Shown here piece by piece: positions 42,294 through 45,015 of a stretch of 64,000 nt of DNA. The notes beneath the pieces are model-generated. The model was not told the origin of the DNA. It did not search any database and saw only the letters and a program-made list of their open reading frames with translations. How positions within the stretch are numbered: position 1 is the first letter of the stretch; each line of letters starts with the position of its first letter. Source of the stretch: Prochlorococcus marinus bv. HNLC2 (GTDB lineage Bacteria > Cyanobacteriota > Cyanobacteriia > PCC-6307 > Cyanobiaceae); NCBI GenBank assembly GCA_000218745.1, contig GL947595.1, forward strand, positions 556,556 through 620,555. The letters are read 5' to 3'. The position numbers and the translations under genes are program-made.

Positions 42294-43154
42294 ATGGATC
42301 TATTTATTATTTTTCTTTTATTGATTATTTTGACAACTATTTTTATTAGTTATAACAAAATTAGTAAAAAGAAAAAATTGCAATTATGTTTAGAATCTAA
42401 TTTCTTTATCGAAGAAATAAAAAAAACAATTGAAAGGAATAAATTTAATCTTCTTGAAGAGAGAAAAAGATTGAAATCTATCGATGCTTATGGGAATGAG
42501 AATCTTAAAAGATGGTTTGGTAAGCCCCCAATAAATAAAAAAGAAATAAAATTTGATCTTTCTCAGAATGGATATGGATTTAAAGAGGGTATCCCTTACT
42601 TTTGGTTTAGAGAAATACTAAAAAGTTTTGAAAGCATAGACATTTTTTTTTCCAAATGGGAGCATTACATAAGAATTAATCCAATTATTAGGGATGAGAT
42701 CTTAGGTAAAGATAGAAAATTGCAATTTGAGGACTGGTATTTATTCATTGCCAGCATGGTCGAAAAATCATGTATTAATTTGATAGATGAATATAAATAT
42801 GAAAATAATCTTAATAATCAAAAAGGTATTGCATTTGAAAATCAGTGTATGAAAATTCTAATTTCAAAAGGCTGGCGAGTTGAAGAAACACCTAAATCCG
42901 GAGATCAAGGTATTGATTTAATTGCTTCGATTGAAAAATATAGACTTTGCATACAATGCAAAGACCATAAAAAGCCAATTGGGAACAAGGCAGTTCAAGA
43001 AGTTTCTGCTGGCAAAAAATATTGGAATGGGACTCACGCAATATTAGTCTCGCAGTCTGGATATACTAAATCCGCATACAAATTAGCTGCAGCGAATAAT
43101 GTTTTACTAATTAGTACTCTTGAATTAAATAATATTGTTTCCTTAATAACTTAG
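42294..43154 (+). CDS. Membrane-anchored Mrr-type restriction endonuclease-like protein
   Basis: 286 residues. Residues 2-22 are a membrane anchor (FIIFLLLIILTTIFISY). The C-terminal 100 residues form a PD-(D/E)xK nuclease of the Mrr_cat class: GIAFENQCMKILISKGW, GDQGIDLIASI and LCIQCKDHKKPIG carry the acidic and Q-x-K catalytic residues. Mrr proteins cut methylated or foreign DNA, but anchored forms occur as general nucleases. It overlaps the MAPEG gene by four bases at its 3' end. Confidence 0.85.
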   Translation: MDLFIIFLLLIILTTIFISYNKISKKKKLQLCLESNFFIEEIKKTIERNKFNLLEERKRLKSIDAYGNENLKRWFGKPPINKKEIKFDLSQNGYGFKEGIPYFWFREILKSFESIDIFFSKWEHYIRINPIIRDEILGKDRKLQFEDWYLFIASMVEKSCINLIDEYKYENNLNNQKGIAFENQCMKILISKGWRVEETPKSGDQGIDLIASIEKYRLCIQCKDHKKPIGNKAVQEVSAGKKYWNGTHAILVSQSGYTKSAYKLAAANNVLLISTLELNNIVSLIT

Positions 43155-43555
43155 AGAATTTGAAAAAGTGCTTCCTTGTAAAGAATAATTGTAGTAAGCA
43201 ATCCACTAGCCCAAAACAGACCCCTTGCCAGTGGCACATCAAATACATAAGCAAAAATATAAAACAACCTTAAAACGGGATGCGACAAAGCTGACAACAT
43301 AGATATATTTGAATCTGGTACGGTTATCAAACAAAACAAACAAGCAGGAGCATGTAATGAAATGCTTTCCCAACAATTCTGATGGCACCAAACTGCTCTT
43401 TTCCCAAATTCAGGTAATTTATCAAAAAATGCTCTTGGTGCTGACATGTTTTCTATAGAGTAGCCAGCCTTGATTCGTCCCAATGTCAAAGGAATTATGG
43501 AAACTAAAACCACAGCCGATGAAAGACAAAGACTCCAAGCAAAATGTAATTGCAT
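43151..43555 (-). CDS. MAPEG family membrane protein
   Basis: 134 residues with four predicted helices. A first-loop segment RAVWCHQNCWESISLHAPAC resembles the RA-x-x-A-x-x-N-x-x-E motif of the family, and RLFYIFAYVFDVPLARGLFW matches the C-terminal conserved block. MAPEG proteins are glutathione-linked transferases or peroxidases in membranes. The substrate is unknown. Convergent with the nuclease gene. Confidence 0.75.
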   Translation of the reverse strand: MQLHFAWSLCLSSAVVLVSIIPLTLGRIKAGYSIENMSAPRAFFDKLPEFGKRAVWCHQNCWESISLHAPACLFCLITVPDSNISMLSALSHPVLRLFYIFAYVFDVPLARGLFWASGLLTTIILYKEALFQIL

Positions 43556-43755: not shown

Positions 43756-44052
43756 TTAATAGCTTTTAAATTGCATTGCTAATATAGCACCTAAGAAAAA
43801 CACTGTCGGGATTCCAAGAGCATTAACAGCTAAAGTTCTTACCGTAAAAACAGGATAACCTTCCTCAGGTCTACCAGATTCAGGAACCAAAGCAGAATCT
43901 TCCCAAACTTGATAATTTTTAAATGGAGCAACATCTTTTTTTGGTAACCCTAGAGGAGTAAGACGGAAAACATCCCACTTACCAAGCCAATAAACAGTTG
44001 ATATCCACGCAATTACTAGTGGAGCAATAACAAGAACTACCCTAAAATCCAT
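43756..44052 (-). CDS. Cytochrome b559 beta (PsbF)-like protein without the heme His
   Basis: 98 residues. The N-terminal part has one helix ([18 protein letters not shown]) and [12 protein letters not shown]. The C-terminal 34 residues, [17 protein letters not shown] then [13 protein letters not shown], closely match PsbF, the beta subunit of photosystem II cytochrome b559, but the heme ligand His (LAVH) is Asn here (LAVN, residue about 77). It therefore cannot bind b559 heme in the usual way. It is probably a photosystem-associated thylakoid protein; its own N-terminal half is not part of PsbF. Confidence 0.75.
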
Positions 44053-44844: not shown

Positions 44845-45015
44845 TTAATAAAATTTAAAAAAATATATTAAAGATCCAAAAAAAATAAGCAATAAAATTA
44901 TAAATACAATATTAGATTTTTTTGACTCTCCTTGAGAAACAAATTTAATTTCTGGCTCAATAGCAAAACCATTTTGTCTTCCCCCGCTTTCAGTTGTAAA
45001 TCCCCTTTTGTCCAT
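44845..45015 (-). CDS. Psb34-like small photosystem II protein
   Basis: 56 residues from the ATG at 45015. FTTESGGRQNGFAIEPEI near the N-terminus matches the conserved soluble stretch of Psb34 (Ssl1498-like), which binds photosystem II assembly intermediates; one helix (NIVFIILLLIFFGSLIYFF) follows. The assignment rests on the G-G-R-x-N-x-F-A-x-E-P pattern and overall size. Confidence 0.7.
   Translation of the reverse strand: MDKRGFTTESGGRQNGFAIEPEIKFVSQGESKKSNIVFIILLLIFFGSLIYFFKFY

Follow-up and report, generated by a model that had tools for sequence, protein, structure and literature searches.

A PsbY-PsbF fusion lacking the heme-ligating histidine is the candidate cytochrome b559 beta subunit of Prochlorococcus lineages without psbF

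Two NCBIfam families, NF002720 and NF002717, carry the name "cytochrome b559 subunit beta, long form". A reader of that name expects a cytochrome subunit; neither it nor the description mentions a lost histidine, a PsbY-type helix or a missing psbF. Canonical PsbF (TIGR01333, PF00283) and the long form share a helix, its FTVR entry and a P-VFFLG-I-AMQF core, but the long form runs to 98 residues against about 40-50, has Asn in place of His and Thr in place of Trp, carries an extra N-terminal helix, is encoded outside psbEFLJ and scores slightly below the TIGR01333 cut-off. With PsbY (PF06298, NF009711) it shares a similar helix in which V8 and P11 line up and, for many members, an M-D-x-R start; unlike PsbY, it is fused to PsbF, carries W22-L23 and W26 where PsbY has an NIG/NIQ segment, and falls below the PsbY cut-offs. 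PsbY influences the redox state of cytochrome b559. A possible precedent for the joining of PsbF and PsbY, compared by HMMER matches alone, is the 99-aa chain F of PDB 7ymi/7ymm, which we take to be Acaryochloris photosystem II (PSII): named photosystem II protein Y, it is PsbF-like at residues 10-44 and PsbY-like at 63-98 (E 0.027), the opposite order to that of the long form.

Loss of the heme has been described in the laboratory. According to an excerpt of PMC9214863, Thermosynechococcus PsbE-His mutants (H23A, H23M) assemble PSII with only apo-cytochrome b559, yet grow photoautotrophically; most Synechocystis His-ligand mutants in the same excerpt contain little PSII and do not grow photoautotrophically. 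H23A and H23M are laboratory mutants of the other subunit, whereas the change in the long form is natural and common to whole lineages. Among the titles and abstract beginnings listed by searches of open-licence literature, we saw no report of the loss of psbF or of a heme ligand in Prochlorococcus, or of a PsbY fusion. The gene already has a family name; the missing His, the PsbY fusion and the replacement of psbF were not mentioned in those titles and abstract beginnings.

We analyzed a long-form ORF in a 64,000-nt stretch of the Prochlorococcus marinus bv. HNLC2 genome (the window; contig GL947595.1, positions 556,556 to 620,555). Its features are listed in Table 1.

Table 1. Features of the long-form ORF (window coordinates) and loci encoding a PsbE with Gln at the heme site
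Feature	Position or locus	Strand	Basis
Long-form cytochrome b559 beta ORF, 98 aa	43756..44052	(-)	ATG to stop; NF002720 196.6 bits
N-terminal PsbY-type transmembrane helix, residues 3-25	43978..44046	(-)	AlphaFold; hhalign to PsbY; shuffles
Loop, residues 26-70	43843..43977	(-)	Low pLDDT, one 4-residue helix only
C-terminal PsbF-type transmembrane helix, residues 71-95	43768..43842	(-)	Family and PDB matches; AlphaFold
Asn77 codon AAT, at the heme-ligating His site of PsbF	43822..43824	(-)	Asn in 76/76 readable loci
Thr73 codon; most canonical PsbF read have Trp here, after FTVR	43834..43836	(-)	Thr in 76/76 loci
PsbE-Gln loci (outside the window)	L203, L204, L207-L211, L214, L217, L218, L220, L221, L223

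Judged by its sequence, the ORF is a PsbF homologue that already belongs to the named long-form family, matching NF002720 over its full length (residues 1-98) with 196.6 bits against a cut-off of 127. Its last 34 residues match PsbF strongly across the transmembrane helix: TIGR01333 gives E 1.4e-16 (59.7 bits, slightly below the cut-off of 61.15), PF00283 gives 36.2 bits (gathering score 30), and PsbF chains in the PDB are matched from E 1e-10 over residues 60-95. These scores rule out a chance match and bear out a preliminary description of this DNA, which had proposed a PsbF-derived subunit that has lost its heme ligand. Two attributes of PsbF are missing. The heme-ligating His is replaced by Asn77, and the gene lies at 600314-600607 of the genome contig instead of between psbE and psbL. 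At the heme site, FTVRTLAVN in the window protein aligns with FTVRWLAVH in PsbF, so that Trp is also replaced, by Thr73; the whole protein contains neither His nor Cys. The protein is laid out as a PsbY-type helix, a loop and a PsbF-type helix. AlphaFold predicts the two hydrophobic helices with a mean pLDDT of only 63.3 (about 82 for the block of residues 1-20), from an input alignment, A1, whose loci were retrieved with a DNA pattern containing Thr and Asn. Residues 24-72 hold 7 K/R and 7 D/E, and the known topology of PsbY and PsbF would place the loop on the cytoplasmic side.

Several neighbors of the long form were also noted. The next gene downstream on the same strand encodes a MAPEG-family protein (window 43151-43555, -), and a similar ORF also follows the long form in HNLC-type loci L071-L076. 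An Mrr-type restriction endonuclease domain (PF04471, 77.3 bits) is encoded at 42294-43154 (+), in what is a small genome. A 56-aa protein at 44845-45015 (-) has a hydrophobic C-terminus and the N-terminus ESGGRQNGFAIEPE, which we take to be reminiscent of HLI/Psb34-type proteins; Pfam at E 0.01 returned zero matches for it. We also considered a phage origin of the long form and rejected it: phage records gave no match, and none of 7 stretches of viral contigs that fit a pattern encoded a relative.

The preliminary description had called the N-terminal helix unrelated, a view that profile comparison overturns. As a single sequence, the window protein matches PF06298 with 13.3 bits at residues 1-15, below the cut-off of 24. 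With hhalign, the profile of the long-form helix aligns to PsbY from residue 1 of both with 95.5% probability (E 1.5e-8), and standalone proteins of relatives bridge the two, their profile reaching 97.2% to PsbY and 99.3% to the long-form helix; the profiles are hand-picked and small (8, 9 and 6 sequences). None of 100 order-shuffled controls reached the observed PsbY score. In an excerpt of PMC4823308, PSII structure 4il6 is drawn with PsbY adjoining PsbE and PsbF. Since the first helix is of PsbY type and PsbY adjoins PsbF in PSII, the window protein is, on these profile matches, a PsbY-PsbF fusion.

We then asked how constant the altered heme site is. Family models brought in 77 loci (L006-L065 and L071-L087, a few genomes appearing twice), which are the best matches, up to 30 for each search, and not every genome with a long form. 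We aligned the long form to these loci with residues 73 and 77 masked in the query; one of them, L085, is a weak chance match and unreadable. All 76 readable loci, comprising 44 distinct sequences, carry Thr73 and Asn77. Another 44 loci also have Asn, but the DNA pattern used to fetch them itself held Thr and Asn, so their invariance and that of alignment A1 are no evidence. Seven HNLC-type genomes encode the Asn with two different codons, AAT in five and AAC in two. An error confined to one contig, which the preliminary description had left open, is ruled out by the 76 loci together with this codon variation. Of 94 codons compared between the long forms of the window genome and HNLC1, 41 differ, and every difference is synonymous; the comparison is without the last codons, the window protein ending in KSY, which HNLC1 lacks. 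The long form is under purifying selection. The Arg of FTVR is retained in long forms, and the Trp is present in the PsbF of genomes whose PsbE has its His.

A normal psbEFLJ operon beside the long form, whose presence the preliminary description had raised as a question, is absent from the window genome. There, psbE (274105-274350) is followed by a 104-nt gap, psbL and psbJ, with no psbF between them, and neither TIGR01333 nor PF00283 finds a canonical psbF elsewhere in the single 1.48-Mb contig; as a positive control, the same model detects one in 5 of the 15 genomes searched together (G001, G006, G042, G275 and G303). We extended the reading by querying 30 genomes for psbE, which gave 21 psbE-psbL loci, 15 without and 6 with psbF. 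The psbF-less genomes are six of HNLC type (the window genome, HNLC1 and four related drafts; gap 104-115 nt), eight of genus g56 (29 nt) and one of g4 (34 nt), the sister genus of g56. Genus g56 is the low-light LLI group: AG-402-M23 and AG-402-L09, both of genus g56, are called LLI in an excerpt of PMC6370341. Cultured strains given the LLI label are NATL2A and MIT0917 in PMC6370341 and MIT1214 in PMC7852507. Left out of the count are six genomes in which psbE was not found (G258, G324, G357, G442, G465 and G300) and three incomplete ones with a long form and no psbF in which psbE was not found either (G073, G078 and G223). A further 30 genera queried gave 29 psbE loci, all 29 with psbF.

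The loss of psbF is accompanied by an apparent lack of psbY. No psbY was found with PF06298 in any of the 24 genomes with a long form and no other PsbF match (6 in one search, which gave sub-threshold matches or none, and 18 in another), a set in which the operon was read directly in 15 and the remainder, some incomplete, were assigned by family searches. By comparison, of 51 genomes that have psbF and a His-bearing PsbE, 48 contain a psbY above the PF06298 cut-off (20 of 20 in the first search, 28 of 31 in the second), psbF being called in some of these from family matches instead of operon reading. The three misses are G272 (71% complete), G297 (53%) and G290 (99%), and the last means that psbY may be lost without loss of psbF. 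The genomes are related, so the counts for both genes are not independent events. We built a tree from Ycf48, PsbL and PsbJ, with 61 rows and two duplicate loci removed. The window genome and HNLC1 form a group on it (100/97), and two psbF losses are needed, with a 5-95% bootstrap range of 2-2 and well-supported branches that force two.

The partner subunit also changes in these lineages. We read 70 PsbE genes (69 recounted by script, L197 read separately). The 42 that retain the His and come from psbF-containing genomes are uniform at three nearby positions (His-1 Ile, His+3 Thr, His+10 Ala). HNLC-type PsbE instead has Val at His-1 and Ser at His+10 (6/6), and PsbE of g56 and g4 has Ala at His+3 (9/9). 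The PsbE His itself, with its adjoining Arg and Trp, is retained in all 15 psbF-less genomes read. A separate group shows the reverse arrangement: in 13 genomes from nine genera (Table 1), the PsbE heme His is Gln and the neighboring Arg is Lys (12) or Asp (1), while PsbF keeps its His and has Phe for Trp. Two of these were chance encounters and the others came from 11 of 20 regions chosen from psbF matches, not at random, so that 11/20 is no estimate of frequency. In G316 (a single contig, 100% complete) and in G285, PsbE gave one match only. Nine of the 13 genomes encode a standalone protein matching the first helix of the long form, and with PF06298 eight give a match at E 0.001 or better, three of these exceeding the cut-off, while five give none. 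The PsbE-Gln trait requires one or two changes on the tree.

In high-light genomes, the long form has a different setting. NF002720 exceeds its cut-off in 124 of 266 genomes of the genus, many of which also have psbF and psbY, and many psbF-containing genomes have no long-form match. At high-light loci (L006-L035 and similar), the long form is followed by a ~60-aa ORF and then a ~32-aa ORF, both encoding small membrane proteins. The first is a paralogue of the PsbY-type helix of the long form (MDIR...ENIFLTKN); for the second (MIPIEQYLFF...), one example tested against NCBIfam and Pfam gave nothing. Several low-light and Synechococcus loci have just one ORF of 31-42 aa after the long form, and neither companion was seen in the HNLC-type and g56 loci read. 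A "third match" in high-light genomes, considered as another psbF, proved at three loci tested to be a small downstream ORF resembling the first helix of the long form. In G006 (C2:55600-55885; L084, L087), a genome that is 100% complete and keeps canonical psbF, the long-form ORF is broken across two frames, which is consistent with dispensability where psbF remains. PMT9312_RS06075, a candidate long form by its name "PsbF-like" alone, has a transcript that goes down with those of other PSII genes under HDPE leachate in an excerpt of PMC6517427. Because many a high-light genome has all three genes, psbF, psbY and the long form, replacement of PsbF by the long form need not be general; in these genomes the protein may serve conditionally, as an alternative subunit.

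Starting from the observed psbF deletion, the failure to find psbY, the PsbY-type helix, the two psbF losses and purifying selection, we infer that the fusion is probably a working beta subunit of cytochrome b559 in PSII that replaces psbF and psbY, and that this b559 is most likely heme-free, which would save iron. With psbF deleted and not found elsewhere, the long form is the sole candidate for the normal PsbF job in the window genome. Its first helix would sit at the position of PsbY and its second at that of PsbF beside PsbE, joined by the cytoplasmic loop, and the structural contacts of both proteins would be preserved. Because Asn stands in for the His of the beta subunit and the long form has no His or Cys, it cannot take part in the usual two-His heme with PsbE. 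The cytochrome would then be heme-free, or at best weakly ligated by one His, while keeping its structural role in assembly. With the heme-holding His gone, the water-splitting machinery may run without that iron, and each photosystem would need one heme iron less. A plausible driver is this economy of iron, both HNLC and LLI being low-iron lineages; an excerpt of PMC7852507 reports two putative ferredoxins missing from LL1 genomes, as from HNLC ecotypes. Counting the two psbF deletions (one in HNLC clades, one in LLI with its sister genus) and one or more changes of the PsbE His to Gln, the evidence leans modestly toward at least three natural losses of the b559 heme in Prochlorococcus and close relatives.

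The PsbE His is kept in the psbF-less genomes, which leaves room for a five-coordinate heme or a heme held between two PsbE. The long form would in that case be the PsbF of PSII with a heme retained by the PsbE His, either alone or with Asn or a water molecule as second ligand, or else by a pair of PsbE subunits. Retention of the neighboring Arg and Trp of PsbE in all 15 genomes, and of the FTVR Arg in long forms, speaks for this arrangement, which we nevertheless consider unlikely: to our knowledge Asn is not a usual heme ligand, the Trp beside the lost His is gone as well, the psbF-less lineages show a change in PsbE itself, at His-1 or at His+3, and a separate group has dropped the PsbE His instead.

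Less probable again is that the long form mimics PsbF as a factor for assembly, repair or stress without being a stoichiometric subunit of PSII. The new job in assembly or repair suggested by the preliminary description could hold in the many high-light genomes that keep psbF and psbY, where the long form adjoins two further small membrane ORFs, and both the split gene of G006 and the many psbF-containing genomes without a long-form match fit such a role. It does not suit the window genome, in which psbF is deleted and not found elsewhere; canonical psbF is likewise missing from the 14 others whose psbE-psbL was read, and we know of no PSII that assembles without any PsbF. The remaining explanation, that psbF was lost through an assembly error and the long form is a minor paralogue, draws on the nature of the window genome, probably assembled from environmental DNA and with an estimated completeness of 95.87%. 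It is very improbable and nearly refuted by the contiguity of psbE and psbL over a short gap in 15 genomes, including separately assembled drafts and six LLI genomes in one contig (99-100% complete), and by a gap that differs by lineage (104-115, 29 and 34 nt). A PsbY-PsbF fusion working in PSII as the beta subunit of a probably heme-free b559 thus accounts best for the window genome.

The role of cytochrome b559 in PSII is an old puzzle: the protein is almost universal and almost essential, but lies off the main path of the electrons. Natural lineages that have lost a ligand, together with culturable LLI strains, would make it possible to test whether PSII repair, photoprotection or assembly depends on the heme or just on the pair of helices. 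The database name of the gene hides the lost His, the PsbY fusion and the replacement of psbF, in a protein found in some of the commonest photosynthetic bacteria of the ocean. If our reading is correct, the heme of b559 is dispensable in large wild populations and has been traded for iron. Phototrophs of iron-poor waters would then have taken a concrete step to save iron, and estimates of cellular iron quotas there assume a fixed number of iron atoms for each photosystem.
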